A stretch of DNA of 46,484 nucleotides, from positions 1 to 46,484 of the forward strand of contig JAFLRZ010000015.1 in assembly GCA_022511225.1 (NCBI GenBank), read 5' to 3'. Positions 3,300 to 24,096 of the stretch are shown here, in pieces. Position 1 is the stretch's first letter. Every line of letters begins with the position of its first letter. Origin of the DNA: Eubacterium sp. Its GTDB lineage: Bacteria; Bacillota; Clostridia; Oscillospirales; Acutalibacteraceae. A model generated the notes under the pieces. It searched no databases. It saw nothing but the letters and a program-made list of their open reading frames with translations, and was not told the DNA's origin. A program made the translations under genes and the position numbers.

Positions 3300-3408
3300 A
3301 AAAGCAAAACGACACGCGCAAAACACTCGTGTCGCAATAAAAAAACGACACCTGTTTTTGCTCTGTACCGTAATCAGATTTACGCGCCAAAGCGCCACAT
3401 GTGTCGTT
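3300..3408 (-). promoter_or_regulatory. attenuator-like leader of the MATE mRNA
   Basis: Read on the minus strand, the leader holds four complementary segments: AACGACAC (3408-3401), GTGTCGTT (3351-3344), GCGACACG (3335-3328) and CGTGTCG (3316-3310). Segments 1 and 2 pair over 8 bp and are followed by a T run (3345-3339, the first two in the stem), a plausible terminator with a large loop. Segments 2 and 3 can pair over 6 bp, which would undo it. Segments 3 and 4 pair over 7-8 bp and are followed by TTTTGCTTTT. The arrangement is that of a classic attenuator or riboswitch expression platform. No known riboswitch class was recognised. Confidence 0.6.
3380..3400 (-). CDS. possible six-residue leader peptide
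   Basis: Within the MATE leader an ATG opens the six-codon frame MWRFGA and stops at TAA. It begins just inside segment 1 of the attenuator, where a stalled ribosome could block pairing of segments 1 and 2. No convincing ribosome site precedes it and such short frames arise by chance, so this is only a candidate. Confidence 0.25.
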   Translation of the reverse strand: MWRFGA

Positions 3409-3431
3409 AAGCTCTATTAAATTGTAGTTAA

Positions 3432-3460
3432 ATTATATCAGAAATTATGCTTAAAGTCAA
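3432..3460 (-). promoter_or_regulatory. sigma-A promoter of the MATE gene
   Basis: On the minus strand TTGACT (3460-3455), a 17-bp spacer and TATAAT (3437-3432) with an upstream TG (extended -10) form a near-ideal promoter. The start would fall near 3425, giving a leader of about 140 bases before the ATG. Confidence 0.8.
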
Positions 3461-3496
3461 ATTAAATCGGCTAATGTTCGGGAATAAATTTGCATG

Positions 3497-3525
3497 TTGA
3501 CAAAGTTCGCCCACGGTGATATAAT
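3497..3525 (+). promoter_or_regulatory. sigma-A promoter of the LytTR regulator gene
   Basis: TTGACA (3497-3502), 17 bp, then TATAAT (3520-3525) with a TG at 3517-3518. It lies back to back with the MATE promoter. The transcript begins roughly ten bases before the gene, and AAGGA at 3532-3536 serves as ribosome site. Confidence 0.85.
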
Positions 3526-3544
3526 TTAGTTAAGGATTAAAGGT

Positions 3545-4255
3545 ATGTTCAATATTGCCATAATAGAAGATGATAAAAATTTCTCGGCAATGCTTAATGA
3601 AAGCATATTAAAGTTCGGCGCCGAAAAAAATTTGTCGTTCAATATTTCGGTATTCGAGAGCATTGAAAACTTTTTGATACCTCGTCAAGACAGCTTCGAC
3701 ATAGTGTTTTTCGACATTGAATTGCCGGGAATGAACGGCATGGACGGCGCTAAAAAGTTTCGCAGTATGGACACCGACGCCGTTATCATCTTTATCACAA
3801 GCCTGTCCAAATATGCAGTAAACGGTTATGAGGTGGACGCTATGGATTACATGGTGAAGCCTATAACCTACAACAACTTTTCTCTCAAGCTGGAAAAGGC
3901 GATAAGAAAGACGGAGAGCAGGCAGTATAAAACCATTTATATTCACGCCAAAGACGGCGTCAGAAAGGTGCGGTCGATTGACGTTTACTTCCTTGAAGTA
4001 AGAGGACATAACTTGACCGTGCACACAGACAACGGATCTGTCGATGCATCCGGAAGCCTATCCGAATTCGAGGAAGAATTAAGACCGTATAACTTTTCGC
4101 GGTGTAATAGCTGTTATCTTGTAAACATGCGTGCAATAGTCAGAATAGACGGCATGTCTATTTGGTTACGCAACGGCGAGGAATTGGCCATAAGCCGTCG
4201 CAAGAAAAAGGAGTTCTTGGACGATTTCACGCAGTATATCGGGAATAACCGTTAA
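3545..4255 (+). CDS. LytTR family response regulator (AgrA/VirR type)
   Basis: This 236-residue cytoplasmic regulator has a receiver domain (about 1-125) with the acidic pair Glu8/Asp9-Asp10, the phosphoacceptor Asp57 in VFFDIELPGMNG, Thr/Ser in FITSLSKYA and Lys in MVKPIT. It is followed by a LytTR DNA-binding domain (about 135-235) with the typical IYIHAKDGVRKVRSIDVYFLE and NFSRCNSCYLVNMRAIVRI segments. LytTR proteins bind paired 9-bp repeats of the form [TA][AC][CA]GTTN[AG][TG]. The cognate sensor kinase follows after 85 bases. No agrB or agrD homologue is nearby, so a peptide pheromone is not evident. Likely targets with such repeats lie upstream of the kinase and of two lipoprotein genes. 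Confidence 0.95.
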   Translation: MFNIAIIEDDKNFSAMLNESILKFGAEKNLSFNISVFESIENFLIPRQDSFDIVFFDIELPGMNGMDGAKKFRSMDTDAVIIFITSLSKYAVNGYEVDAMDYMVKPITYNNFSLKLEKAIRKTESRQYKTIYIHAKDGVRKVRSIDVYFLEVRGHNLTVHTDNGSVDASGSLSEFEEELRPYNFSRCNSCYLVNMRAIVRIDGMSIWLRNGEELAISRRKKKEFLDDFTQYIGNNR

Positions 4256-4316
4256 AGATTAAAATAATACCGTTTGCGAAAATCACATTGCATAATTAGT
4301 ACGCATTGACTATTCT
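4248..4316 (+). promoter_or_regulatory. LytTR-type site pair and promoter of kinase gene
   Basis: ACCGTTAAA (4248-4256, overlapping the regulator's stop codon) and ACCGTTTGC (4269-4277) each fit eight of nine positions of the LytTR consensus and start 21 bp apart. Then come a -35 TTGCAT (4288-4293), a 17-bp spacer and a -10 TATTCT (4311-4316). The weak -35 and -10 fit a promoter that needs activation. The geometry is repeated exactly at 9586-9654. Confidence 0.65.
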
Positions 4317-4340
4317 GTAAGCGTTAACGGTAGGTGTGTT

Positions 4341-5648
4341 ATGAACATGTATATCGGCATAACCGATAAACTATTATTGATTATCACCATTTACGCGGCG
4401 ATGTTTTTGTATTCGCCGCGCGTGTCGTGGCGCAAGACAAAATCGTCATGGTGGTTTGTTTTATGTGTTGCCGCATTAGTAGGGTTAAGCTTTTTAAGTG
4501 AAAGCACAAAAAATCTGTTGGTCACGGACAAAGTAACGCTTATATTAAAAAACGGAGTAGACATTATTTTAATTTCCGGCAGTATAGCGAGCATGTTGTT
4601 TCTTAAAAAATACAGCCGTCCGAGGATATTGTTTGTGGGATGCGCCGCTTATGCGACTGCGTATTTGGCAAATAACATATTTTCGCTGATCGCGTCTCTG
4701 TTGGTCGGCCCTTCGGGGGCAATATCGGTTAGCCAAGCTGCCGAAATATCCATACGAGTAGTTATATTTGCCATCATTTACTCCGCACTGTATGCCGTTT
4801 GTTGGTTTTTGTGCGTAAAAAAGCAGCACAACGGGTTGGAATATGCCGTTGATAAGTCTGTGTTTGCTATTTTCATTTTGATATTTGCGGTCAATATTTT
4901 TACCGGCTCGTATGAGCAAAACGCCACGTTCAATGTTGTTTTGTTTAACAAAGTGCTCTCGTGTGTTTTGATTCTATTCGTGTTGTTTAAGCAATCCAAT
5001 TATATCAATTCGCGTGAAGAAAACGCCCGTTTGCAATACATAATGGAAAAACAAAAGATACAGTATTCCATTGCCAAAGAAAATATAGATCAAGTAAATG
5101 TGCGCGCGCACGACTTAAAGCACTTTGTCGAAATTTTTAAAAGTGCCGGGAGCGTTCCCGACGACGTTCTATCCGAAGTGACGGCCATAGGCAACGAATA
5201 TGACAGCACTTATGATACGGGCAGCAAAGCGCTCGACATTACGCTCACCGAAAAGTGCGCAGGATTTGCCGCAAATCACATCGCTTTTTCGGTAATAGCC
5301 GACGGCTCTTGCCTGTCGTTTATGTCCGATGTCGACATATATGTTCTGTTCGGTAATTTGCTTGAAAACGCAAGGGAAGCGGTGCTTGGGATAGCGGACG
5401 CAGATAATCGCATAATAGGCATGCACATCAAAAAGACCGAGCAATTTATTTCTATTCATATTGAAAACACATTTGGACAAAAGCCGATATTCGAGGATGG
5501 GTTGCCGCAGACGAGCAAGTCAGACAAGGATAATCACGGCTTCGGAACAAAGAGCATCCAGCTCGTGGTCGAAAAGTACCGCGGCACAATGAAAATGGAT
5601 TGCGACGACAAATTATTCTCGGTCGACATCGCGTTTTTTGCGCAATGA
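4341..5648 (+). CDS. GHKL-type sensor histidine kinase (AgrC-like)
   Basis: This 435-residue protein has six or seven hydrophobic segments in the first 215 residues, a coiled stretch, then the phosphoacceptor box with His257 (VRAHDLKHFVEIF). The ATPase domain has the N box around Asn343 (LFGNLLENAREAV), and a glycine-rich box near the C-terminus (NHGFGTKSIQLVVEKYRG). This is the AgrC/BlpH layout, in which a membrane sensor phosphorylates a LytTR regulator, here the gene just upstream. The ligand is unknown. It has its own probable LytTR-activated promoter, suggesting positive feedback, and is closed by a terminator at 5679. Confidence 0.93.
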   Translation: MNMYIGITDKLLLIITIYAAMFLYSPRVSWRKTKSSWWFVLCVAALVGLSFLSESTKNLLVTDKVTLILKNGVDIILISGSIASMLFLKKYSRPRILFVGCAAYATAYLANNIFSLIASLLVGPSGAISVSQAAEISIRVVIFAIIYSALYAVCWFLCVKKQHNGLEYAVDKSVFAIFILIFAVNIFTGSYEQNATFNVVLFNKVLSCVLILFVLFKQSNYINSREENARLQYIMEKQKIQYSIAKENIDQVNVRAHDLKHFVEIFKSAGSVPDDVLSEVTAIGNEYDSTYDTGSKALDITLTEKCAGFAANHIAFSVIADGSCLSFMSDVDIYVLFGNLLENAREAVLGIADADNRIIGMHIKKTEQFISIHIENTFGQKPIFEDGLPQTSKSDKDNHGFGTKSIQLVVEKYRGTMKMDCDDKLFSVDIAFFAQ

Positions 5649-5717
5649 CCACAAGGGAAGAAAAATCAACCTTTTAAGAAAGACGCATTGAAATAAATGC
5701 GTCTTTCATTTTATAGT
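5648..5717 (+). promoter_or_regulatory. possible LytTR-responsive promoter of DUF6273 gene
   Basis: A weaker copy of the arrangement upstream of the kinase: ACCACAAGG (5648) and ACCTTTTAA (5669) begin 21 bp apart, with TTGAAA at 5688-5693 (same distance from the second site) and TATAGT at 5712-5717 (18-bp spacer). The first half-site matches poorly. The -35 lies inside the kinase terminator hairpin, an unusual overlap. Confidence 0.4.
5679..5715 (+). terminator. terminator of kinase gene
   Basis: An 11-bp perfect stem AAAGACGCATT/AATGCGTCTTT with a six-base loop (5679-5706) is followed by a T-rich tract. It separates the two-component genes from the lipoprotein cluster. Confidence 0.8.
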
Positions 5718-5749
5718 GAATTATCGAAAACAGAAATTGCGAGGTGAAA

Positions 5750-7069
5750 ATGAAGAAGGGTAAATTCAAGATTTTGACGGTTGCCGTTTCCGCGCTTTGC
5801 ATGGCTGCGCTTGTTACGGCGTGTGGTGGCGACGATACGCCTGCCGCAAAATGCACCGAACACAAATGGAATGACGGCGAGATTGTAACGACTGCCACTT
5901 GCGGTGAGCGCGGAATCAAAAAGTTCACCTGCACCGTTTGCAGCGATACCAAAACCGAACGGTACGGCGAGGCTACGGGTGCGCATTCTTATGACGGCAA
6001 GGAATGCTCGGTGTGCGGCTATGTGGATATGTCCGATATGACGGCAGGGGCGGCGATAGCGCAGTACGGTTATTATCATGTCGACGCGGACGACAGCCAC
6101 ACGGTCAATACCGGCGATCACATTCATTTCGGCTCCTATCCGCAGGCAGAGGTTAAGGACGGTGAATTGACGGCTACTCTCGCCGGGAAGCTCTCTTCGA
6201 GCGGTTGGACTTCGTATGGATATTATGCCGAAGGAGCTTTAAATGACGGACTTATGAGCTATCAAGACGTGACGGACGGCGACGCAAAATACCGCGCAGT
6301 CAAGATAGACGGATACAGACCCTTCTATACCGATTTGGCGGCTACGTCTGCCAATTCGATTGTGTATGAAAACGGCTATCGCACGGGAAACATCTATTGG
6401 TTTGCCTTCGCGCCGATTGAATGGCGTGTGCTCGATTACGGGAACGGCGAAGCGATGCTGAACACCGCAGACTGCATAGACAGTCAAAGCTACAACAACA
6501 CGTACGACAAGAACGGTGCGCAGTATTACAATAAGGGAACGGAAATTTTCAGCAACGAGTGGGAGCATTCCGCTATTCGCAGCTATCTTAACGGCACATT
6601 CTTTAATACAGCGTTTTCGTCGGCGGAACAAGCCAAGATGGTTCAAAAAACGCTGAGCAACAGCGACACGGGATTTAACGCTACGAGCAATTATTCCGTT
6701 TCGCAGAGAGATACAAACGACAAAGTATATCTGCTTTCTTATCAAGATTTACTAAACAAGAGTTACGGTTTTCCCAACGACATGATGCACGATAACAATG
6801 ACCCCGCCGACTTGAGCGTGTGCAAGCTCGGTACCGATTATGCGCTGTGCCAAGGCGCAAGGACGAGTGTTCAATCGCCGGGTAGCTGGTGGATGCTGCG
6901 CTCTGCGGGCGGCAAATCTTTTTCGATTTGCGGCGTAACCAAATACGGCAGCATTACAAATTCGAACACGGCATCATATACTCCGGGCAACAACACCAAA
7001 ACCGAAGGAATAGCGTTTAATACTTCGGAAGGCGTTTCACCCGTTGTAAATATTAAAATAGGAAAATAA
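5750..7069 (+). CDS. DUF6273 lipoprotein with Cys-pair N-terminal segment
   Basis: This 439-residue exported lipoprotein has a signal peptide ending in VTAC, with Cys25 as lipidation site. Residues about 35-90 hold cysteine and histidine pairs (CTEHKW, TATCGERG, CTVC, CSVCGY) in the form common in Clostridia surface proteins and suggestive of a small metal-binding motif. The rest fits DUF6273: FGSYPQAEV, FAPIEWRVLDYG, W-HSAIRSYLNGTFFNTAFS, WWMLRSAGG and the closing GVSPVVNI. DUF6273 has no settled function. The frame allows a GTG start two codons earlier, but GAGG at 5741-5744 favours the ATG at 5750. It is followed after 15 bases by the tannase-like gene. Confidence 0.85.
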   Translation: MKKGKFKILTVAVSALCMAALVTACGGDDTPAAKCTEHKWNDGEIVTTATCGERGIKKFTCTVCSDTKTERYGEATGAHSYDGKECSVCGYVDMSDMTAGAAIAQYGYYHVDADDSHTVNTGDHIHFGSYPQAEVKDGELTATLAGKLSSSGWTSYGYYAEGALNDGLMSYQDVTDGDAKYRAVKIDGYRPFYTDLAATSANSIVYENGYRTGNIYWFAFAPIEWRVLDYGNGEAMLNTADCIDSQSYNNTYDKNGAQYYNKGTEIFSNEWEHSAIRSYLNGTFFNTAFSSAEQAKMVQKTLSNSDTGFNATSNYSVSQRDTNDKVYLLSYQDLLNKSYGFPNDMMHDNNDPADLSVCKLGTDYALCQGARTSVQSPGSWWMLRSAGGKSFSICGVTKYGSITNSNTASYTPGNNTKTEGIAFNTSEGVSPVVNIKIGK

Positions 7070-7084
7070 GTATTGGAGGGATAT

Positions 7085-8641
7085 ATGAATAAGAACAAAT
7101 TATTGGCGGTCATGCTTGCCGCAACAATGGTTTGCACAACAGGCATGATGGCGGCGTGCGGAGACGGAAACAAAGACGACGACAAAAAGCCTGCCGGATC
7201 CTCGGGTTACAGTATGGACATAACCGAACAGGTGTCGAGCTGGAAAAAGACAACCAAAAACAACGCTACATACTATTCGGCAGAGGGCGTCGTTTACTGC
7301 GAAAAACCCACGACAAAAGCCAAGCAGGCGCTCAATATTTATGTTCCTGCCGAATATATGAACGATGACGGCTCGATAAACAGCTCCGGTACTCGCAACG
7401 GTTATACTGCCGAGACCGCGCCTATTCTTTATATAAACAGCGTGGGCGCATATCAAGGTAAGGTTCCTTACAAGATAACCGACGCCACGGAGACGCTCGC
7501 CATGAAACAAGGTTGGTACTTCGATTATATAAATCAAGGCTTTGTTCTGGCATTTGCGGGAGCGCGGGGCAGAAGCGATTACGACAGCAATTCCGTTGCG
7601 CTCGGCAAGGCGCCTGTCGGATTGTCGGACTTGAAAGCCGGAATACGCTTTTTAAAGCACAACGGCGATAAGCTCCCCGGCGATACCGACAAGATAATTT
7701 CGAGCGGAATGAGTGCGGGCGGAGCTATGAGTATGCTTATTGCAACGTCCGGCAATTCATCCGAGTTCGACAGCTATTTGCAAGCTATGGGCGCGGTGAT
7801 GGACGAAACGGACGACGTATATGCTGCGCAAGCATACTGCCCGATTACCGATTTGGACTACGCTGATTTCGCTTACGAATGGATGTTTAAAAATGACAAC
7901 AACAATACGGCGAACGGGTTGAGCGCGTTCCAAAAGGCGTTGTCTGCCAATTTCTACAACGAGTACATATCGTACTTCAACAGCAAAAATATCAAGGTCG
8001 GAGAAGTAACATATCAGCTCGGATCGGACGGCAGAAGCGGGACGTTTTACGATTGGTTGCTCGAGCAGTACGCAATTTCGTACCGAGTGAACGCGGGGGA
8101 GAATGCGACTCTTCCGAGTTACTTATCGTCGCTTGATTCCATAGTGACAAATCACAACCATCGTTCCAAGGTGTGTCCTACGTTCGATTCGCTCGATATT
8201 TCCACGACGGCAAGCGCCAGTTCGGAAAACGGCGTATTCGGCAATCCCGCCGCGAGCTTAAAGGATGCCGATTTTCAGCGGCACTTCTGCGTAGGTGTGA
8301 CGGAACAGATAAAAGCGCTTGAATCACAATTCCCCACGGAATATGCCAAATATTATGAGGCATATAAGGCGCAGAGCGATCTTGCGGAAGTTAAAAAGCA
8401 AGTCGAGCTGTATAATCCTTACACCTATCTCTACGCCGGCAACACCGACGTCGCGCAAAAAATTCGCATTTGCGTAGGCTCGGCGGATTCGGATACGTCC
8501 ATTGCGGTAACAGGTCAGCTCACGCTTACATTGCGCTCACTCGGAATAGATACCGAGTACGCAATCATGTGGGGGCAGGGACATACCGATGCCGATCTTG
8601 CGGGAGCGTATGAGGCGTGGGTAAACAGCATAAGCAAATAA
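7085..8641 (+). CDS. tannase-like (subtype B) esterase lipoprotein
   Basis: This 518-residue alpha/beta hydrolase is anchored as a lipoprotein (signal peptide ending MAAC, Cys25). The nucleophile is Ser210 in SSGMSAGGAMS. Asp468 or Asp470 in VGSADSDTS and His500 in WGQGHTDAD are the probable triad partners. The AYCPITDLDYADFAYEWMF segment and the long insert between strand and acid residue resemble bacterial tannases of the Lactobacillus plantarum type, which hydrolyse galloyl esters. The start is set by GGAGG at 7075-7079. It lies in a run of lipoprotein genes followed by a GH3 glycosidase, which fits extracellular attack on acylated plant glycosides. The substrate is inferred from resemblance, not shown. 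Confidence 0.8.
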   Translation: MNKNKLLAVMLAATMVCTTGMMAACGDGNKDDDKKPAGSSGYSMDITEQVSSWKKTTKNNATYYSAEGVVYCEKPTTKAKQALNIYVPAEYMNDDGSINSSGTRNGYTAETAPILYINSVGAYQGKVPYKITDATETLAMKQGWYFDYINQGFVLAFAGARGRSDYDSNSVALGKAPVGLSDLKAGIRFLKHNGDKLPGDTDKIISSGMSAGGAMSMLIATSGNSSEFDSYLQAMGAVMDETDDVYAAQAYCPITDLDYADFAYEWMFKNDNNNTANGLSAFQKALSANFYNEYISYFNSKNIKVGEVTYQLGSDGRSGTFYDWLLEQYAISYRVNAGENATLPSYLSSLDSIVTNHNHRSKVCPTFDSLDISTTASASSENGVFGNPAASLKDADFQRHFCVGVTEQIKALESQFPTEYAKYYEAYKAQSDLAEVKKQVELYNPYTYLYAGNTDVAQKIRICVGSADSDTSIAVTGQLTLTLRSLGIDTEYAIMWGQGHTDADLAGAYEAWVNSISK

Positions 8642-8662
8642 CTTAATATAAGGAGAATAAAA

Positions 8663-9586
8663 ATGAAAGGTAAAAAAATAACAGCGTTACTTTTGACCGC
8701 GGCATTTGCATCGGCTGCCGCAATCGGTCTTGCGGCGTGCGGCGGCGATTCGACTCCGACCGGCGGCGGCGACAATTCCGGATTAAAAACAGGCGGGTGG
8801 AATGACTTTACTCATACTTACACCGACAACACGGGCGCGGAAGTCAATCTCGCGTACAGCTTGTATGTCCCCACCGTTTACGACGGTAAGAAGGATTTGC
8901 CGCTCGTCACATACATTCCCGACGCTACGATAAGCGCCGTCGCAAGGACAAAAACCGCTCAGTGCCCCAAATATTGGAAAGGACACGACAGCTCGCTTAT
9001 TCTGATCCTTACATCCGACAAGCTCGGCAACGATCCTACGGACACAACCACGCAGGGGGGACAGATTGTTCCCATAATAGACAAGCTTTGTCAGGACTAT
9101 GCAATAGACAGCAGCAGACTGTATCTTACCGGACAGTCCAAGGGCGGCATATATGATTTTGCACTAAACGAAGCATATCCCACCAAGTTCGCCGCCACCG
9201 TGTACGTAAGCTGTCAGATGGGCGGAGACGTAGGTGACGCGCAGTACAACAGAATTTTGCAAGGCGAGACGTGGGCGAATCAGAATTTTGTGTATATCGC
9301 GTCCAAACTTGACGAAAAAGCGCCGTATGGGCAAAAAGCCATAATGGATGCGTTAGACGCTAAAGGCACCGATTACGGATACCTTACCGATCTCGACCAT
9401 AAAGACATTTCGGCAACGAGCGATCTTATCAAAGCGGAGCTTGATAAGGGCAATAAAAACAACATATTCCAATTTAAACAGGTTACCGCGAACGGCGACG
9501 GAGCGCAGGAGCATATGCAGGGCTTCCAATACGGATATATGGTCGACAGCATTTACGACTGGCTTATGGCACAGAAAAAGGCATGA
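8663..9586 (+). CDS. alpha/beta hydrolase lipoprotein (esterase-like)
   Basis: This 307-residue exported lipoprotein (lipobox LAAC, Cys26) has an alpha/beta hydrolase domain of the polyhydroxybutyrate depolymerase/feruloyl esterase-like group. Visible are the strand LPLVTYIPDA, the elbow YLTGQSKGGIYDFA with nucleophile Ser159, and a candidate catalytic His284 in DGAQEHMQGFQ. The acid residue may be Asp in SKLDEKAPYG. It starts 21 bases after the tannase-like gene with AAGGAG before the ATG, so the two are probably co-transcribed. It likely works outside the cell on an ester substrate. Exact specificity cannot be read. Confidence 0.8.
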   Translation: MKGKKITALLLTAAFASAAAIGLAACGGDSTPTGGGDNSGLKTGGWNDFTHTYTDNTGAEVNLAYSLYVPTVYDGKKDLPLVTYIPDATISAVARTKTAQCPKYWKGHDSSLILILTSDKLGNDPTDTTTQGGQIVPIIDKLCQDYAIDSSRLYLTGQSKGGIYDFALNEAYPTKFAATVYVSCQMGGDVGDAQYNRILQGETWANQNFVYIASKLDEKAPYGQKAIMDALDAKGTDYGYLTDLDHKDISATSDLIKAELDKGNKNNIFQFKQVTANGDGAQEHMQGFQYGYMVDSIYDWLMAQKKA

Positions 9587-9654
9587 CCGTTTAGGCAGAA
9601 AAACATACCCTATAGGAATTTCAACTTGTATCATTTCAACTATATAATTATCAT
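9586..9654 (+). promoter_or_regulatory. LytTR-type site pair and promoter of lipoprotein gene
   Basis: ACCGTTTAG (9586-9594) matches the LytTR consensus at all nine positions, and ACCCTATAG (9607-9615) follows 21 bp later. A -35 TTGTAT (9626-9631), a 17-bp spacer and -10 TATCAT (9649-9654) stand at exactly the same distances as in the kinase promoter. An overlapping alternative pair is TTTCAA (9619) with TATAAT (9643), spacer 18. The first half-site overlaps the stop codon of the preceding hydrolase gene. Confidence 0.65.
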
Positions 9655-9691
9655 AAAACTACCAAAATAAATTTTCGGAGGAAAATGTAAA

Positions 9692-10933
9692 ATGAAGAAA
9701 GTAAAAAAACTCTTGACAGCCGTAACGGCTCTCGCACTTGCCGGAACCTGCGGCGTCGCGCTCGCAGCGTGCGGCGAAACAAATGCTGCAAACACGGACG
9801 CCAAAAAGTCGTATTCCATGACCATTAATTCGTGGTCGGACTACACCGACGAGCACGAGGTTCCTTTCCTCACCGGTCAGAGCGGCGCTATATTCGGCTT
9901 TGACAGCTGGATCGTCAGCGGCACCAAGGTCAACTTCGACGACGACGGCAATCCCATAGACTGCTATTGGACGTTCAATCTCGAAGTAGAAGACAGCATA
10001 GTCAAGAACCATGTGGACTATGTCATGACATACTACTTCCACGGCGGCGCTTCCGAGCTTTACGACAATCCCATCGATGCGGTTTACAAGTTCTATGGCT
10101 TGGGCTACGAGATTAAAGGCGGATATCACCTCTATGTCGCCAACTTCGCGGAAGCGACGATCACGCTTAACTGCGCGGTGGAAACTCCGGGCTGGCCGGA
10201 AAACGGCGACACCGGCGAAGGCGAGGGCGTTTTCTCGAGACTTGAAGGTCCCAACGGTACCATTTATTATCATTACTGCAATTCGGATATTCAGGCCGCA
10301 GGCGGTCATTACGGCTTCCCGTTCCAAGCCAATCTTACTCAGGGCTTCAGCGAATGCGACGTGCTTGTCTCCGGCTCCAAAATCAGCGGATTTGACAATG
10401 TAACCGGCAACAAGGCCGTCGTAGTCGAAGGCGGTTCGAGCAGCAGCGGTGGCCCCGGCGGAGAACTTCCCGGCGGTCCCGAAGGTCCCGGCGGAGAAGA
10501 GCCGGCAGCACCTTCGTACATCTACGAGAATGAAATGTGGGCAGGTAGCGCGACAGTGGAAGCGCTCGCAGGTGCTTACACCTATTCCGAAACCGTTGCG
10601 GGCATGATGGCAGGTGAGAACTTCGCTTGGAATGTTGAGTTTACGTTTGAAGAAGAGGGCGGCAAGGTTACCGCGCATGCGACAAGCGATGAAGTTCAGT
10701 TTGGACCGAAGGATCTTACGTTCGAGGGAACCTACAAGGTATATCATAACAACGACGAAACTCTCATAATAATCAGTGGTCTCGGTGTCAAACCTCAGGA
10801 TGGCGGCTCTGTTCCCGGTGGAAAGACCGAAGGCGCAGCTCCCTCGGAGTATAACTTTAAACTCACCAATGCAAGCGGCAACACGATTTTGAAGCTTACA
10901 GGCACAACCCTTTCGCTTCTCGAAGTGAAATAA
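9692..10933 (+). CDS. lipoprotein of unknown function with Pro-Gly linker
   Basis: I do not recognise a family for this 413-residue protein. It has a signal peptide with lipobox LAAC (Cys27), a first domain of mostly polar beta-like sequence (about 40-245), a low-complexity Ser-Gly-Pro-Glu linker (about 248-276), and a second small domain (about 277-413) with alternating strands such as WNVEFTFEEEGGKVTAHA and TLIIISGLGVKP. GGAGG precedes the ATG. It has its own probable promoter with a well-matched LytTR site pair, so it may be a main output of the nearby two-component system. It is rich in Asp, Glu and Gly, as expected of an extracellular binding protein. Confidence 0.75.
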   Translation: MKKVKKLLTAVTALALAGTCGVALAACGETNAANTDAKKSYSMTINSWSDYTDEHEVPFLTGQSGAIFGFDSWIVSGTKVNFDDDGNPIDCYWTFNLEVEDSIVKNHVDYVMTYYFHGGASELYDNPIDAVYKFYGLGYEIKGGYHLYVANFAEATITLNCAVETPGWPENGDTGEGEGVFSRLEGPNGTIYYHYCNSDIQAAGGHYGFPFQANLTQGFSECDVLVSGSKISGFDNVTGNKAVVVEGGSSSSGGPGGELPGGPEGPGGEEPAAPSYIYENEMWAGSATVEALAGAYTYSETVAGMMAGENFAWNVEFTFEEEGGKVTAHATSDEVQFGPKDLTFEGTYKVYHNNDETLIIISGLGVKPQDGGSVPGGKTEGAAPSEYNFKLTNASGNTILKLTGTTLSLLEVK

Positions 10934-10956
10934 TATTAAAACAATCAAATATCCCG

Positions 10957-10997
10957 AAACGGCAGTTAGGCTGTTAATTGCCTAACCGCCGTTTTGA
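10957..10997 (+). terminator. terminator-like hairpin directly before the GH3 gene
   Basis: A 14-bp stem with one mismatch (AAACGGC-GTTAGGC against GCCTAAC-GCCGTTT), a short loop and TTTTGATTTT. It ends only a few bases before the ribosome site of the next gene (11002-11007), leaving no room for a promoter between them. Confidence 0.75.
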
Positions 10998-11014
10998 TTT
11001 TGGGAGGAATGTGT

Positions 11015-14000
11015 ATGAAAAATCAATCCGGAACATTAAGGTTCCCTAAAATACCGGTTATCATCCTGTCGGCGCTCGCGGCGCTGTTCCTTATAGTCGC
11101 AATAGTTGCTGACATCGTCATAAACAGTTATTGGGAAATTATCGCCGCGGCTTTTTCGGATACGGAATCGGTTACAAACCAAAACCTCATGGACGAGGCG
11201 ATAGAAGAAAGCCATGCGGTTAACGTCGAGCTTTTGGAAGAGGGCAGCGTTCTTTTAAAGAACGACGACAACGTTTTGCCCATTCCGTCCTCGACAAAAA
11301 AATTAAACGTGTACGGTATAATTTCCGCAAACATTTATCTTAACACCTCCGGTTCGGGCTCTGTAAATAACGACAACGTTACGTCGTTAAAGACTGCGCT
11401 GGAAGGCGAGGGATACGAGATAAACAGTGCGCTTTGGAATTTGCTCAAGGCTCAAAAGGTAGAGGGGAATAACCCCGGAATTAACGAAGGCAGCACAATA
11501 GAAGACGCTGTCTCGGAAATTAGGCTCGCACAGTACAACAACGCGATGTCTTGGGAAAATGCAAAGACTTATTCCGAGTATGCGATTGTTACGTTTGGCC
11601 GCGCCGGCGCCGAAGGATCCGATCTCAGCCGCGGCAGTGCCACTAAGACGAGCATGCTCGAGCTTGGAAGCAGCGAGATAGCTTTGCTCAAACAGCTTCA
11701 CGACACGGGCTTTAAGGTCGTCACGCTTATAAACAGTTCACACGTAATAGAGTTAGGACCTGTAATACAATACTCGGACGCAATCTTGTGGATTGGCGGC
11801 CCCGGACTTTACGGTTTGGAAGGTGTGGCGCATGTGCTTTCCGGCAAGGTCTCCCCGTCAGGCAGACTTGTGGACACATGGATGTACGAGCAGGAAACAA
11901 GTTCTACATATTACACCGCACAGCAGTACAATTACAGCGGAGCTTCGGGCGGTTACACCAACTATAACGAAGGTATTTACATAGGATATAAGTGGTACGA
12001 AACTGCCGACGCCGAAGGCTACTGGGATAAAGCGCCTTACAGCGGTTATGACAATGTAGTCGCTTACCCGTTCGGTTATGGACTTTCTTACGGCGAATTG
12101 ACGGAAGAAATAACCGACATTAAGCACGAAAACGGCGTTTTTACGTTTACCGTTAAAGCAACAAACGCGGCAGGTGCGGCGGCAACAAAGGACGTTTTCG
12201 AGCTGTATGTCGAAAAGCCCTATACAAACGGCGGCGTGGAAGTGTCCAAGGTCGAACTTGTAGCTTTTGCCAAGAGCGATATAATCACAAGCGGCGGCAG
12301 CTATTCCACTACGATAACGGTAAAAGACGAGGATTTGGCGTCCTACGACAGCTCGGCGGCAAACGGCGTGGGCGCTTACGTTCTTGCCGGTGGGGAATAC
12401 AAGTTCTACATTGCGAGCGGAAAAACGGGCGCACATTGCTGGAAAACCGCCAACGAGAGTAACAGCAAGACGTACACACTTACGGAAGTAGTGTATAGTG
12501 GAAATAACGGCAGAAGCAGCGACGCCGTGGCGGCGCAAAATCAGCTCGGCGCGGATCAAAATGACAACGCGCTTGCGATTGATGACAGTAATTCGGGATA
12601 TAAAGCGTTATCGCGCGCGAATAATTTTGCAAACGCTTCATCTACAATAGGCAGGTCTGCCGTTACCAATAACATTACGGCTTCCGAAAAGGTTAAAAAG
12701 CTTTTGACAGATTATACCGACTACGGCAAATATCACGGCGAAATCCTTTCCAATCTTAAAACAGAGCAGAAAAAGAAATACAGCTTTGCCGACTTATACA
12801 CGACGGACGCGGACGGCAAAGCGTTGTATGAGGCCGTGTTCGATGAGTCGACGGGCGAGCTTGTCGGTAAAAACATTACGGGCTCCGTCGATTACGACGA
12901 TGCGCGCTGGGATTATCTCATCTCGCAGATGTCGGTTGACGATATGCAAAAGCTCATCGGGCAGGGCGGGTGGATGACCGCCAAGGTCGATTCGATTGAC
13001 AAAATAAAGGGTGTCGACTACGACGGCCCGAGCGGACTTTCCAACCTCATGCAAAACTCGCTTGGAATTAAAACGCAATGCACTTCTTTTAACAGCGAGC
13101 CGGTCACTGCCTCCACATGGAATGTTGAGCTTGCGGATAAGCTCGGTAAAGCGGTGGCAAAGGAAGCGAACGCAAGCGGTCAGTCGGGTTGGTATGCACC
13201 GGGCGCGAACATTCACCGCACGCCTTTCGGCGGAAGAAACGCCGAGTATTTTTCGGAGGACGCCTACATTTCGGGAATAATGTGTGCGGCGGAATCGGGC
13301 GGAGCGCTGTCGCTTGGACTGTACTGCATGGCAAAGCATTTCGCATTTAACGATATCGAGGCAAATAGGACGTCGCTTGAAAACTGTTATATGAGCGAGC
13401 AAACCGCGCGCGAGATTTACTTGAAGGCGTTTGAAATCGGCGTTAAGAGCGGCGATGTTCCCGGGCTTATGTGCTCGTACATGTGGATAAACGGCGAATG
13501 GCTTGGCGGCGATTACGCACTGCTCACAAAAATAGTGCGCGACGAGTGGGGCTTTAAAGGCTTGATTACGACCGACAATGCCGGACAAGGCGGCGGATAT
13601 AAATGGATGTCTCCCGCAAAGATGATATATGCCGGCGGCGATATGGTTCTTGCCAATCCCACGCAGAAATTGCCGAATGAAATCAAAAATTCCGACGAAG
13701 GCATTTCGGCGATGAAAACTGCCAGCAAGCACATTCTTTACACGATTGCTTCGGCTTACCTCAACCGTCTTGAAGCGGCAAGAGTTGGCGAGAACAAATT
13801 CGAGCCGATCTTTGTTGTGATTAATGTTATCCTTTATGTTGTTGTGGGGCACCTAGTAATAGCGGACGGAGTGTTGCTTATAGTGTACTCCGTACGAAAG
13901 AAAAAATCGGCAAATGGCGATGGCGACGATTTGCAAGCAGCCGAACCCGATATAGCGCCGTCAGTTGACAGGCCGCAAGCAGACGATATGGTTGCAGATG

Positions 14001-14026
14001 AATCACAAACCGCACAAAACGACTAA
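11015..14026 (+). CDS. membrane-anchored GH3 glycosidase, permuted domain order
   Basis: This 1003-residue protein has a transmembrane helix near each end (about 10-36 and 932-955), so the enzyme body should face outside. Domain order is inverted relative to most GH3 enzymes: the (alpha/beta)6 C-type domain comes first (VELLEEGSVLLKNDDNVLPI onwards), then a fibronectin III-like stretch after YPFGYGLSYGE, then the TIM-barrel domain (from about 630) with KHFAFNDIEANR and the nucleophile Asp854 in GLITTDNAGQGG. This order is known in some ruminococcal and Butyrivibrio beta-glucosidases. GGGAGG at 11002-11007 selects the ATG at 11015. The tail is acidic and cytoplasmic. Sugar specificity is not certain. 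Confidence 0.88.
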   Translation: MKNQSGTLRFPKIPVIILSALAALFLIVAIVADIVINSYWEIIAAAFSDTESVTNQNLMDEAIEESHAVNVELLEEGSVLLKNDDNVLPIPSSTKKLNVYGIISANIYLNTSGSGSVNNDNVTSLKTALEGEGYEINSALWNLLKAQKVEGNNPGINEGSTIEDAVSEIRLAQYNNAMSWENAKTYSEYAIVTFGRAGAEGSDLSRGSATKTSMLELGSSEIALLKQLHDTGFKVVTLINSSHVIELGPVIQYSDAILWIGGPGLYGLEGVAHVLSGKVSPSGRLVDTWMYEQETSSTYYTAQQYNYSGASGGYTNYNEGIYIGYKWYETADAEGYWDKAPYSGYDNVVAYPFGYGLSYGELTEEITDIKHENGVFTFTVKATNAAGAAATKDVFELYVEKPYTNGGVEVSKVELVAFAKSDIITSGGSYSTTITVKDEDLASYDSSAANGVGAYVLAGGEYKFYIASGKTGAHCWKTANESNSKTYTLTEVVYSGNNGRSSDAVAAQNQLGADQNDNALAIDDSNSGYKALSRANNFANASSTIGRSAVTNNITASEKVKKLLTDYTDYGKYHGEILSNLKTEQKKKYSFADLYTTDADGKALYEAVFDESTGELVGKNITGSVDYDDARWDYLISQMSVDDMQKLIGQGGWMTAKVDSIDKIKGVDYDGPSGLSNLMQNSLGIKTQCTSFNSEPVTASTWNVELADKLGKAVAKEANASGQSGWYAPGANIHRTPFGGRNAEYFSEDAYISGIMCAAESGGALSLGLYCMAKHFAFNDIEANRTSLENCYMSEQTAREIYLKAFEIGVKSGDVPGLMCSYMWINGEWLGGDYALLTKIVRDEWGFKGLITTDNAGQGGGYKWMSPAKMIYAGGDMVLANPTQKLPNEIKNSDEGISAMKTASKHILYTIASAYLNRLEAARVGENKFEPIFVVINVILYVVVGHLVIADGVLLIVYSVRKKKSANGDGDDLQAAEPDIAPSVDRPQADDMVADESQTAQND

Positions 14027-14103
14027 CGGTCTTCAACCTTAGCACTACGGCATTAGCCGACAATAAATCAGTGCAACTTTCTTCATCTTTCCTCCTTTTG
14101 TAG

Positions 14104-14146
14104 CCGACGTGGGTGTTCGATTATCGACGCACACGTCGGTGTTTTT
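14104..14146 (+). terminator. terminator after GH3 gene
   Basis: An 8-bp stem CCGACGTG/CACGTCGG with further inner pairing (TCGA/TCGA) and a TGTTTTT tail. It lacks a T tract in the minus direction, so it serves the plus-strand gene. Confidence 0.8.
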
Positions 14147-14233
14147 GAAAGGATGAAGATGTTATCGGGAATTAAAGTCGTGTAATAATATTAATTTCAG
14201 ATATAGAAGATAAATGTTCTTTTAGCATTTTCT

Positions 14234-16290: not shown

Positions 16291-16318
16291 CAAGCGAAAG
16301 TTTAAGGTGGTACCGGAA

Positions 16319-17971
16319 ATGGAAAGTGCTGTTATCTATGCTCGGTTTAGTTCTTACGGTCAGAACGAGCAGAGTATTGAGGCGCAGGTGCGAATCTGCA
16401 AGGAATTTGCGGAAAACAGGGGATTGAAAGTTATCAATGTTTATACCGATAAAGCGCGGACGGGAACGAATGATGCGCGTCCGGGTTTTCAGCGCATGAT
16501 ATCCGACTCAAAGAACGGTGCTTTTCGCTACATTATTGTTTATATGTTCGATAGGTTCGCGCGCAATCGTCACGATAGTATTGTATACAAGGAAATGTTG
16601 CGCGAGAAGTATAATGTGCGTGTTCTCTCGGCGCTCGAACCTATCGCCGAAGACGAAGGCGGCGAGTTCTATGAAATGTTTTTGGAGTGGAACGCTGAGA
16701 AATACAGTAAGCGGCTTTCAAAGCGTGTGCGTGACGGTTTGGACACCAGCGTTGCAAACGGTACGTTTTGCGGCGGTCATCTAATATACGGGTATAGGTT
16801 AGAGTTAGAGCCTATCCCCGGCAAAGCGGGTAAATTCATAAAGCGCGTCGTTATAAACGAAGATGAAGCGGAAATACTGCGATACGCATTTCAGCAGTAC
16901 GATATGGGCGTGAGCAAGAAAGAAATAGCCGAAGCCCTGAACGCAAAGGGATTAAGGTATAACGGCAAGCCGTTCAAAAACCGCACTTTCGATAAATATT
17001 TTCTCAATGAAAAATATACGGGCGAGTTCTATTTCGGAGATAGGCTTTGTACCAATATGTATCCCCAAATAATAGATAAAGCTCTGTTTGACAGAGTAAA
17101 AGAAAAACTGACTGCCAATAAGTATTATGCCGGCGGTGAAGCGCAGGCGAAAGTGCCGCATCTGTTGACGGGGAAGCTGATATGCGGGCACTGCAAAACT
17201 CTTATGCGCTCGGATAAGGGTACTGGTAAATTGGGTAAAGCGTATTACTATTACATATGCCGGAATGTCAGGTCCGGAAAATGCAATAAGCAGCGCGTGT
17301 ATAAAGATGCGTTGGAAGAATATGTTACGCGTTCGGTCGTGGAATTTCTCGCGGTTAAGTCCAATGTGGCAAGAATTGCAAAGGATACGGTCGCGTTTTA
17401 CGATAAACGCACGGACGAACAGAATATAAAGGCGATACAGTCAAAAATAGTGAATGTTCGCAAAGAGGTAGAGGAACTGACTACTGCGTATGTTAAAGCT
17501 CGGAACGATCTATTACGCGAAACGATAGAAAAGCAGATGGCAGAGTTTGAAATCCTTTTGAACGATCTTCTTGAACAGGAGGCAAAGTTAGAGCTTGAAC
17601 GAGGTTATAAGTTGACCGAGCAGGATATACTCAATTTCGTTGATATGATAATTCACGGCGAAACTGCCGATAAAGATTTTCAGAAGCGTATAATAGATAA
17701 TCTGGTGAAATGGATATATGTCTATGACGACCATAAAATAATTCTACTAAACTTTAATAATGATAACACTATTGAGAAATTGACAGATGAAGAAAGAGAT
17801 GCTATACTTGATGAACTCGAAGGTAGTAGAGATACGGCGTGTAGTAAGGTGTTCGTAAGCGCTCACCATCTGCCCGCCAAGAGCACCCAATTTGAACCCG
17901 AAAGTTCGAGGGTGCTTTTTTGTATGTCAAAAATATTTTACCGGTGCCTAAGCATGTTAAGAGAAAGCTAA
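16319..17971 (+). CDS. large serine recombinase (resolvase/invertase family)
   Basis: This 550-residue protein has an N-terminal resolvase domain with the nucleophile Ser11 in VIYARFSSYGQ, Arg residues in YMFDRFARNRHD, a recombinase domain (INEDEAEILRYAFQQYDMGVSKKEIAEALNAKGL), a zinc ribbon (CGHCKTLM...YICRNVRSGKC) and a C-terminal coiled coil. Such enzymes move or excise phages and conjugative or defence elements by site-specific strand exchange. GTG at 16307 is possible, but AAGGTGG precedes ATG 16319. The last 30 or so codons run through a terminator-like hairpin (17882-17921), so the natural C-terminus may be shorter. No matching attachment sites were identified in the window. Confidence 0.92.
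   Translation: MESAVIYARFSSYGQNEQSIEAQVRICKEFAENRGLKVINVYTDKARTGTNDARPGFQRMISDSKNGAFRYIIVYMFDRFARNRHDSIVYKEMLREKYNVRVLSALEPIAEDEGGEFYEMFLEWNAEKYSKRLSKRVRDGLDTSVANGTFCGGHLIYGYRLELEPIPGKAGKFIKRVVINEDEAEILRYAFQQYDMGVSKKEIAEALNAKGLRYNGKPFKNRTFDKYFLNEKYTGEFYFGDRLCTNMYPQIIDKALFDRVKEKLTANKYYAGGEAQAKVPHLLTGKLICGHCKTLMRSDKGTGKLGKAYYYYICRNVRSGKCNKQRVYKDALEEYVTRSVVEFLAVKSNVARIAKDTVAFYDKRTDEQNIKAIQSKIVNVRKEVEELTTAYVKARNDLLRETIEKQMAEFEILLNDLLEQEAKLELERGYKLTEQDILNFVDMIIHGETADKDFQKRIIDNLVKWIYVYDDHKIILLNFNNDNTIEKLTDEERDAILDELEGSRDTACSKVFVSAHHLPAKSTQFEPESSRVLFCMSKIFYRCLSMLRES
17882..17921 (+). terminator. terminator hairpin within the recombinase 3' end
   Basis: AGCACCC (17882-17888) pairs with GGGTGCT (17910-17916). 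An inner TTGAA/TTCGA helix (one G-T pair) and an eight-base loop complete it, and it is followed by a T run to 17921. It lies inside the open frame, about 50 bases before the stop codon. Confidence 0.75.
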
Positions 17972-18493: not shown

Positions 18494-18571
18494 ATGCGAA
18501 AGTCAAAAATAATCATAGTTGATCGTATGAACGGTAACTATACTAATAAACTCATAGAGGTAAACAAATGA
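18494..18571 (+). CDS. possible 25-residue ORF overlapping gajA start
   Basis: A 25-codon frame begins MRKSKIIIVDRM and ends with TGA at 18569-18571, sharing an ATGA overlap with the ATG of the next gene. An in-frame stop lies just upstream, so it is not the end of a longer gene. The ribosome site is weak. The overlap is the usual signature of translational coupling, but a chance frame of this length is quite possible. Confidence 0.3.
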   Translation: MRKSKIIIVDRMNGNYTNKLIEVNK

Positions 18572-20544
18572 AATTAACAAAGGTAGAAATACGTAATTAT
18601 AGATTACTGGTAGAGGCGGACTTAACAATAGATGAACATACAACCCTTATTGTGGGGCGTAATAATACCGCAAAAACGTCTTTATTGTTGTTATTATCCA
18701 GTGTTCTGAATCATGATAGTTTGAAATACAATGACTATCCTTTGAGTAGAAGAAAGAAATTGTTCGAGTTATTGTTAGGATTATTAACAAAAAAAATAAC
18801 ATATGAACAGTTTTGCAAAGATATTCCAAAGCCTTCTATTAAATTCTATGTTGATTATTCTGATGAGGGTGAGGATAATTACATAAGCGGGCTATCTCCA
18901 TTTATAATTGATGTAGATGAGGCGGTATCGCAAGCGATTATTTTTGCAGAATATAGTGTAAATATTTCAGAATCTGATATCGGTGTTTTATTTAAAGAAA
19001 TCTTGTTGCCTGAAGATGGCAATATGGAAAAGTGGGATATTTCTTTAATAAACACGATGAAGGATATATTGGCTTCAAATTTTGGGAAGATTTTTTCATT
19101 ATCTATAAGTGCAATTAACCCATTACATACCGAATCACGTCAAATAAAAAGCGCACAGGAATTAAAAGCGTTATTTCCGCTGTGTGCCATCCGAGCTGAA
19201 AGAAACCTAGATGAGTCTGGCGAAAGTAATAAATCATCGTTGCATTCAATTATAAGTAGTTTTTTTAGTATGGATGAAAATGATTTGGATGAGGAATCAA
19301 AAAATAATGTGATAAAATTGAGACAAACAGTAAATGAAGCCAATATTAACATTCAGAAGAATACAGATTCGATTTTAAGTCAACTGGTAAATAAATGTGT
19401 TGGTTTTGGTTATCCTAATGCAGATGAATTACAGCTGGGCGTATCAACTAAATTAGCATTACCAGAACAAATTCAAAATAATACAGAATTGACGTATCGT
19501 AACGGTGAAAACGAGAGTTTGCCTAGTGAGTATAATGGATTAGGTTATAAAAATCTTATTAAAATTCAGTTTCAGTTAGCGCAATATGCGAGCCAGATTA
19601 AACAGCGAGATATAGCGTGTATTCCACTTTTATTTATTGAAGAACCTGAGTCACATATGCATCCCCAAATGCAGCAAGTTTTTATTGCGTATCTAGAGGA
19701 TTTCCTAAAAGAAATTTCGAATATACATATTCAGGTAATTGTTACTTCTCACTCATCTCATATTACAAATACAGTAGACTTTTCAAAGATACGATATTCC
19801 CAAAGAAACAATAATGGGGTTATATACAAGGATTTAAATGATTTTGCTAAAAACAATGGAGATAATGTAGAGTTCATAAGAAAATATATGACAGTCAGCA
19901 GGTGTGATTTATTCTTTGCAGATAAAGCGATTATCATCGAGGGTGCTTCTGAAAGATTATTGTTGCCTGATATGATTGGGAAATGTGACGAATTAAATCT
20001 CTTTGGTCAGCAACAAAAAAGGTTGCCATATCAATACATTTCACTAATAGAAGTAGGGGGTGCGTATGCTTACAAGTTTATTCCTTTTGTGAATTTCCTG
20101 GGGATTCCCAGTCTTATTATTACAGACATAGATTCGGTTGATGAGAATGGGAATAAAACCATTGTGTCGCGAGCAAATGATAGCTCAAATGCAACGATTA
20201 AATATTTCATTAGAAACAGAAAAAAGTTGGTAGCATCCGCAAAAATAACTATTGATGAGATTAAAGCTTTAACAAGTGATGAAAAAACATTAGATAAAGT
20301 ACATTTGGAATTCCAAACCACAGAAAATGGCCTTTGCGGAAGATCACTTGAGGAGTCTATTATAAATGTAAATAGAGAGTTATTTAAAATACTAGAACCA
20401 ATAAATGAGAATAAAATCGAGTTTAAGGGTAAGAGTAAGACAGAATTCGCATTGAACTTAATACTTGACATAGAAGAATATAATATTCCTAATTATATAA
20501 AAGATGGATTGATTTGGTTGAATGAACAAGCTGTTATTATTTAA
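18568..20544 (+). CDS. gajA: Gabija protein GajA (OLD family ATPase-TOPRIM nuclease)
   Basis: This 658-residue protein has an N-terminal ABC-type ATPase with Walker A GRNNTAKTS (30-38), Walker B LLFIEEPESHMHPQ and the VTSHSSHI switch. It is followed by a C-terminal TOPRIM domain with the acidic residues IIIEGASERLLLP and LIITDIDSVDENG. This is the class 2 OLD architecture. Being immediately followed by a UvrD-like helicase gene, it makes up a Gabija phage-defence pair, in which GajA is a nucleotide-sensing DNA endonuclease. It is somewhat longer than the Bacillus cereus protein (578 residues, from memory). AGAGG at 18556-18560 serves the ATG. The strong AT bias relative to the left third of the window suggests transfer. 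Confidence 0.88.
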   Translation: MKLTKVEIRNYRLLVEADLTIDEHTTLIVGRNNTAKTSLLLLLSSVLNHDSLKYNDYPLSRRKKLFELLLGLLTKKITYEQFCKDIPKPSIKFYVDYSDEGEDNYISGLSPFIIDVDEAVSQAIIFAEYSVNISESDIGVLFKEILLPEDGNMEKWDISLINTMKDILASNFGKIFSLSISAINPLHTESRQIKSAQELKALFPLCAIRAERNLDESGESNKSSLHSIISSFFSMDENDLDEESKNNVIKLRQTVNEANINIQKNTDSILSQLVNKCVGFGYPNADELQLGVSTKLALPEQIQNNTELTYRNGENESLPSEYNGLGYKNLIKIQFQLAQYASQIKQRDIACIPLLFIEEPESHMHPQMQQVFIAYLEDFLKEISNIHIQVIVTSHSSHITNTVDFSKIRYSQRNNNGVIYKDLNDFAKNNGDNVEFIRKYMTVSRCDLFFADKAIIIEGASERLLLPDMIGKCDELNLFGQQQKRLPYQYISLIEVGGAYAYKFIPFVNFLGIPSLIITDIDSVDENGNKTIVSRANDSSNATIKYFIRNRKKLVASAKITIDEIKALTSDEKTLDKVHLEFQTTENGLCGRSLEESIINVNRELFKILEPINENKIEFKGKSKTEFALNLILDIEEYNIPNYIKDGLIWLNEQAVII

Positions 20545-20559
20545 TTTATGGAGGATACT

Positions 20560-22284: not shown

Positions 22285-22396
22285 TGCCAATAATTATTAA
22301 GAATATGTAATATCTACAATTTGTTGCCTGGTTTTAAGTCGTCTAAAAAACAAAAGCAAATCATCTTATGTTAAACTATACTAGAGGATAAGAGTT

Positions 22397-24073: not shown

Positions 24074-24096
24074 TTCATTACGATATTTCAGACTCT

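Follow-up and report, generated by a model that had tools for sequence, protein, structure and literature searches.

The 46,484-nucleotide contig JAFLRZ010000015.1 of Eubacterium sp. (assembly GCA_022511225.1), a gut-type bacterium, called here in its full length the window, carries the gene of a LytTR response regulator, followed by a histidine kinase gene and a run of genes for lipoproteins, esterases and a glycosidase. This raises the question of which genes the regulator controls, through which promoters, and whether the system belongs with the agr quorum sensors. A preliminary description of the sequence had proposed a LytTR regulon with identical promoter geometry at two sites and a weaker copy at a third. 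We consider it quite probable that the LytTR two-component system controls a surface glycosidase and esterase locus through promoters preceded by 9-bp repeats, and the regulon would most likely extend as far as the GH3 gene (11015-14026).

The regulator has a receiver domain followed by a LytTR domain (Pfam Response_reg, 51.7 bits; LytTR, 68.2 bits; both above cut-off), the arrangement of the AlgR/AgrA/LytR regulators, and is the sole LytTR protein found in the genome searched, which is 98.65% complete. In a sequence search against solved structures, the best 60 of 110 matches lay chiefly over the receiver domain, and among these COME was the only structure aligned over the LytTR part, up to residue 224. 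The kinase gene starts 85 bp downstream of the regulator gene. Its product matches PF14501 (HATPase_c_5) with 84.6 bits and, on a crude profile, shows hydropathy peaks across residues 5-219, which describes a membrane sensor of the class that we take to be GHKL or HPK10-like; AgrC of S. aureus is likewise a GHKL-type kinase.

Three predicted sites in this locus consist of two 9-bp repeats about 12 bp apart and about 10 bp upstream of a -35 box, and the twelve box coordinates originally given for them were all correct on reading the sequence. Sites 2 and 3 each begin on the last base of a stop codon, that of the second esterase gene and that of the kinase gene respectively. The repeats of LytTR operons are reported to be 9 bp long and mostly 12 bp apart, with a strong bias towards a distance of 10 bp to the -35 box (PMC6193735). 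Since a 12-bp gap followed by 10 bp to the -35 box amounts to 21 bp from start to start and 19 bp from the second half-site to the -35 box, these are the very numbers noticed at this locus, and the fixed geometry is general to LytTR promoters rather than particular to the locus (PMC6193735). With the transcription start set 7 bp after the -10 box, the centre of the pair lies about 60 bp before the presumed start, as is stated for AgrA (PMC4227749).

An external model was built at this fixed geometry from 16 published repeat pairs, five from S. mutans and eleven from other species, S. pneumoniae and B. cereus included, with other rows of the same source left out (PMC6193735), together with hexamer weights for the promoter boxes. 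The window contributed only its base composition, and 92,824 positions over both strands were scored. Site 2 ranked 1st (19.4), site 3 2nd (18.8) and site 1 4th (17.7); the 3rd rank (17.8) was a position inside an open reading frame (ORF), and the next score after site 1 was 13.6. Ten wrong geometries gave top scores of 12.4 to 17.3, all under 17.7, the nearest being (21,14) with 17.3, at 9586 itself by way of a rival TATAAT, and (21,24) with 17.2 at 18912, inside an ORF. A consensus that we take to be of the AgrA type, combined with the fixed geometry, matched the window at a 21-bp spacing only at 4248 and 9586, and seven other spacings gave three matches in all. In the 2.2-Mb genome, ACCGTT-N15-ACCGTT occurred three times, once as site 1 and twice inside ORFs. 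The looser ACCSTW-N15-ACCSTW occurred 13 times (twice when written backwards): ten in ORFs, one intergenic without boxes, and the remaining two at sites 1 and 2. These were the only ACCSTW pairs in the genome to precede a gene with boxes at the fixed geometry; both patterns were fitted to the sites themselves, hence the genome scan, which had been named in advance as a check, is post hoc in its pattern. Taken together, these searches support the claim that LytTR pairs of one fixed geometry lie beside the only LytTR regulator found in the genome.

The subfamily to which the regulator belongs was observed to accompany GH3 genes. One scan of genome contigs with the regulator gave 28 loci, 19 of them with a near-full-length relative, and a GH3 match was present within the stretch in 12 of the 19 (Clostridia and related metagenome-assembled genomes, Bifidobacterium, Bombiscardovia and Oerskovia). 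A profile search of 394 genomes of the order, with up to seven candidates scored per genome, returned at least 45 regulators that scored above 200 bits, spread over 12 genomes and counting that of the window, and further matches from 196 bits. Fetching 42 of the 44 non-window matches above 200 bits (two from G252 were left out), we found these subfamily regulators within about 7 kb of a GH3 gene in 31 of 40 fetched stretches, as against 0 of 20 control stretches around agr-like regulators of 168-196 bits, hand-picked from the listed matches. Genomes G429, G364 and G435 contain at least seven such regulators each and G290 six, and a GH3 match was present in 7/7 stretches of G435, 4/7 of G429, 3/7 of G364 and 4/5 of G290. 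Across 48 regulator-kinase pairs the two genes can overlap in 38, measured from the earliest possible kinase start, which makes a separate LytTR promoter of the kinase gene unusual; a gap of at least 60 bp was found in only two pairs besides that of the window, and in L042, one of these two, the 809 bp include a second regulator gene.

Within the genus, few conserved copies of the kinase and of the orphan lipoprotein encoded behind site 2 are available: the best-scoring kinase match in 59 congeners is 29% identical across residues 201-428 (up to 43% in short fragments), and the lipoprotein has a single marginal relative (E 9e-4) among 97 other genomes. Footprinting therefore needed distant relatives. 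In 195 gap-strands of 49 loci, reduced from 210 by removing near-duplicates, direct repeats of 9-mers agreeing in 8 or more letters were 21 bp apart in 27, while the 28 other distances between 12 and 40 gave a mean of 5.1 (sd 2.8, maximum 12); the gap borders came from a simple ORF finder, and some of the gaps contain coding sequence, for instance in L131 and L123 by reading. The agr-like controls share the preference, with 21-bp repeats in 15 of 97 gap-strands against a mean of 2.9 at other distances, so that 21 bp is a LytTR property and not a mark of the GH3-linked subfamily. After the kinase gene (44 stretches), 21 bp was the best distance in 11, in ten of them without a tie, and at least one (L131) reads as coding.

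The position of the -35 box was also analysed without a motif. In gaps with a good promoter it lay 14-22 bp past the second repeat in 6 of 7 cases with 21-bp repeats (3 of 4 in L095-L134 alone) and in 3 of 17 with other spacings, the gaps being few overall. With a family consensus drawn up by eye, the -35 boxes peaked clearly at 19 bp, a result that is partly circular, as some loci behind the consensus were aligned by that offset, and does not amount to proof. On 47 loci, with L095 left out as an apparent duplicate of L039, the external model produced 11 matches of at least 14, five of which lie upstream of a gene compared with 0-3 at ten wrong geometries; the three best (31.7, 28.6 and 25.9, in L098, L103 and L114) stand directly before GH2 genes, in stretches that also contain GH3. 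L037, a metagenome-assembled genome from roe deer duodenum, is a distant relative with a largely syntenic locus: regulator, kinase, DUF6273 and second esterase in one ORF, a stretch unmatched by window proteins, GH3 and a tannase-like esterase. The unmatched stretch is presumed to be the gene for a secreted protein, and repeat pairs with boxes precede both this putative gene (12358) and DUF6273 (10131), as equivalents of sites 2 and 3. The idea that each locus has its own diverged half-site, as orthogonal paralogues, was weakened when many repeats were found to fit one loose pattern once in register. In L040 (Bifidobacterium colobi), positions 10202-10295 just after the kinase gene contain ACCGTCAGT-like repeats on both strands, several of them 21 bp apart.

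A number of results weigh against regulation through these sites. By the external model some half-sites are weak (second half of site 2, 0.9; first half of site 1, 1.9; first half of site 3, 1.9), and a scan of the first 14.1 kb for repeat identity plus boxes placed site 2 2nd, with sites 1 and 3 not among the seven matches listed. When the four half-sites of sites 1 and 2 were turned into a matrix, L095-L134 showed no peak of -35 boxes at the 19-bp offset (z 0.1). Among relatives, a strong upstream match to the external model was present in only 5 of 47 loci, L037 not being among the five, and no GH3 was found in 9 of the 40 subfamily stretches and 7 of the 19 contig-scan stretches, in some because contigs end. 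At site 2, rival boxes TTCAAC (9620)-17-TATAAT (9643) have a better plain-promoter score than promoter 2, their -35 beginning 13 bp, not 19, after the second half-site. It might then be argued that the pairs are chance repeats and that the genes use ordinary promoters such as this one, the more so as two of the three ACCGTT-N15-ACCGTT occurrences in the genome are ORF-internal. We regard this as very improbable, given that three of the four top window positions lie between genes of this locus, next to the only LytTR gene that was found, that the layout is the published LytTR layout (PMC6193735) and that 21-bp repeats are enriched in the gaps of relatives.

Site 3 is more delicate, since the -35 box of its promoter falls in the loop of the strong terminator hairpin 5678-5707 (-18.4 kcal/mol), a further point against the proposed regulation. 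Its halves agree in 3 of 9 letters, and by repeat score a distance of 21 ranks 19th of 29 spacings in that gap. On this evidence only sites 1 and 2 would be real, the third would be the terminator of the kinase operon, and DUF6273 and the esterases would be expressed by read-through, a reading to which we give somewhat less than an even chance. Set against it are the second-best position in the window under the external model, promoter boxes that match 10 of 12 consensus letters and, at the equivalent place in L037, a closer half-site pair with the same hairpin overlap (-15.7 kcal/mol). The site, called degenerate in the preliminary description, fares better than was supposed there, by its external-model rank and by the pair in L037. 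Interpretation of the site as a mere terminator, on the degenerate halves and the -35 in the loop, was first favoured and was dropped on that rank. We lean towards site 3 being functional, in which case a terminator and a regulated promoter may be combined there.

The system had further been characterised as AgrCA-like without a pheromone gene. This is borne out in so far as AgrB (PF04647) had no match in the genome, while the same search gave matches in 11 genomes out of the 60 in the relatives set, 10 scoring above the cut-off. The AgrCA framing itself is unsupported, given the association of the subfamily with GH3 loci. A quorum-sensing circuit of the agr kind whose peptide gene is distant or has escaped recognition would agree with a kinase that combines a GHKL domain (HATPase_c_5) with a multi-span membrane part (crude hydropathy), and with the 21-bp spacing in the gaps near agr-like regulators. 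We consider it improbable: the regulator scores 41.1 bits against the AgrA equivalog NF046049, for which the cut-off is 400; GH3 loci accompany the subfamily and not the agr-like controls; and AgrB was not found in the genome with a search that had its positive control, AgrD-like small peptide genes not having been searched for.

The features of the locus are collected in the following table.

Table. Genes and predicted regulatory elements of the LytTR locus (window coordinates).
Feature	Position	Strand	Remarks
Predicted promoter of regulator gene	3497..3525	+	perfect consensus TTGACA-17-TATAAT
Response regulator, receiver + LytTR domains	3545..4255	+	236 aa; Pfam
Predicted LytTR site 1	4248..4277	+	ACCGTTAAA (4248)-12-ACCGTTTGC (4269); first half overlaps regulator stop codon
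Predicted promoter 1, kinase gene	4288..4316	+	TTGCAT (4288)-17-TATTCT (4311); -35 10 bp past second half-site
Histidine kinase, taken as GHKL (HATPase_c_5), multi-span membrane N-terminus	4341..5648	+	HDLKH motif by sequence reading
Candidate LytTR site 3	5648..5677	+	ACCACAAGG (5648)-12-ACCTTTTAA (5669); first half weak
Intrinsic terminator hairpin after kinase gene	5678..5707	+	12 pairs, then T-rich; -18.4 kcal/mol, z -5.8
Candidate promoter 3, before DUF6273 lipoprotein gene	5688..5717	+	TTGAAA (5688)-18-TATAGT (5712)
DUF6273 lipoprotein	5750..7069	+	Pfam
Lipoprotein esterase	7085..8641	+	Pfam BD-FAE; NCBIfam tannase_B below cut-off
Second esterase-like lipoprotein	8663..9586	+	weak PHB-depolymerase / Peptidase_S9 similarity, under cut-offs
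Predicted LytTR site 2	9586..9615	+	ACCGTTTAG (9586)-12-ACCCTATAG (9607)
Predicted promoter 2	9626..9654	+	TTGTAT (9626)-17-TATCAT (9649)
Orphan lipoprotein	9692..10933	+	without Pfam or NCBIfam match
Hairpin between orphan lipoprotein and GH3 genes	10955..10996	+	-26.6 kcal/mol, z -6.3
GH3 glycosidase	11015..14026	+	permuted order GH3_C, Fn3, GH3_N; Pfam

Upstream of the regulator gene, the repeat scan found no 21-bp LytTR pair; a weak 20-bp pair overlaps the promoter. A further half-site, ACCGTTAAC, lies on the minus strand at 4323-4331, after the -10 box of promoter 1 and ahead of the kinase gene, and could be a second regulator contact or a repressor contact. The orphan lipoprotein gene sits under the best-ranked LytTR site, and its product showed no relation to 21 lipoprotein-like ORFs of relatives. 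Framing of the cluster around unknown lipoproteins was not supported either, with the first esterase coming close to the NCBIfam tannase-B model (281.4 bits, cut-off 300) and the regulator subfamily associated with GH3 loci. The GH3 protein has a hydrophobic span at either end (residues 7-46 and 928-961 by hydropathy). Among the seven proteins encoded at 3545-14026 there was no match to a transporter family, and in this the locus departs from a Gram-positive polysaccharide utilisation locus, which combines glycosidase, regulator and transport; none of the listed RNAs, riboswitches included, was found at gathering scores in 3300-14200.

The hairpin in front of the GH3 gene is probably a partial terminator. 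Strong hairpins (z -4.5 to -6.6) stand between a secreted or lipoprotein-like gene and GH3 in the window (10955-10996), in L042 (10905-10960) and in L037 (13195-13260), as if only part of the transcription of the upstream gene carried on into GH3. Further out, positions 1-55 of the window read like the 3' end of a tRNA gene (ARAGORN found no tRNA in the window) and the ORF at 16307-17971, after the locus, reads like a serine recombinase; a mobile island is possible. By ORF reading only, a repetitive surface-type ORF of 2715 aa at 29239-37386 follows helicase- and ATPase-like ORFs at 18568-27198.

The mechanism that we infer, with its binding, activation, feedback and substrate, would be as follows. 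The regulator would be made from its consensus and probably constitutive promoter, and would be phosphorylated by the membrane GHKL kinase upon a signal other than an AgrB-processed peptide. It would then bind the pair of 9-bp direct repeats, which are separated by 12 bp and followed after another 10 bp by a weak -35 box, and recruit RNA polymerase. At least two promoters would be its targets, one for the kinase gene and one for the unit of orphan lipoprotein and GH3, and with a better than even chance also a third, before the DUF6273-esterase-esterase genes. As the kinase gene is placed under its own LytTR promoter, signal-driven phosphorylation should raise the kinase level, giving positive feedback through the sensor. 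At the cell surface, the products would break down plant-type glycosides as well as phenolic or acyl esters.

A concrete regulon would thereby be available for a recurrent and little-studied type of sensor, the LytTR two-component systems near membrane-anchored GH3, of whose regulator subfamily some genomes hold at least seven copies. The published geometry lets targets of such LytTR-GH3 systems be proposed from sequence, and since the locus suggests a substrate class (glycosides, phenolic esters), it yields a short list of candidate inducers. The locus also argues against taking an AgrC-like kinase that lacks AgrB for a broken quorum sensor. As a long shot, it may be hypothesised that the sensors next to GH3 loci in Clostridia, Bifidobacterium and Oerskovia form a pheromone-free family whose ligand is an aromatic glycoside, a galloyl ester or a product made by the enzymes of the locus, and that in this species regulator control of the kinase alone makes an all-or-none switch. 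If this were true, sensor abundance and not regulator abundance would set the memory.

Both the LytTR-GH3 linkage and the promoter geometry are already known from the literature (PMC2914790, PMC6193735). Among the papers listed in the literature searches, with their limited cover of subscription journals, none was found that describes promoter sites at a LytTR-GH3 locus or connects a tannase with LytTR. As in S. aureus AgrCA P2-P3, two direct repeats centred near -60 are combined here with a LytTR regulator (PMC4227749). The locus differs in its -35/-10 spacing of 17-18, against 18 and 20 in S. aureus agr, and in having enzymes as predicted targets (PMC4227749); unlike agr, it has no AgrB that could be found in the genome and its regulator is far under the AgrA equivalog cut-off. 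The LytTR Regulatory Systems, S. mutans HdrR/BrsR among them, likewise have 9-bp repeats, in most cases separated by 12 bp and frequently lying 10 bp ahead of the -35, and show positive autoregulation, which the feedback proposed here would resemble (PMC6193735). In them a membrane protein partners the LytTR regulator, and they are described as distinct from two-component systems (PMC6193735), whereas a receiver domain and a GHKL kinase are present here. Roseburia Ros-7 is similar to the locus as a carbohydrate locus of a gut Firmicute with a LytTR regulator and a histidine kinase, and differs by its transporters and GH25, GH43 and GH51 (PMC5320581). In Butyrivibrio proteoclasticus B316, the LytTR regulators of PUL7, 21 and 33 are found near secreted GH3 enzymes that carry a membrane span at the C-terminus, and the section on LytTR-GH3 reports no promoter sites (PMC2914790). 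The present locus resembles these in its LytTR regulator near a GH3 with a C-terminal hydrophobic span and, compared with B316 by description and not by sequence, goes beyond it in the tannase-B-like esterase, DUF6273, the orphan lipoprotein and the predicted separate promoter of the kinase (PMC2914790).

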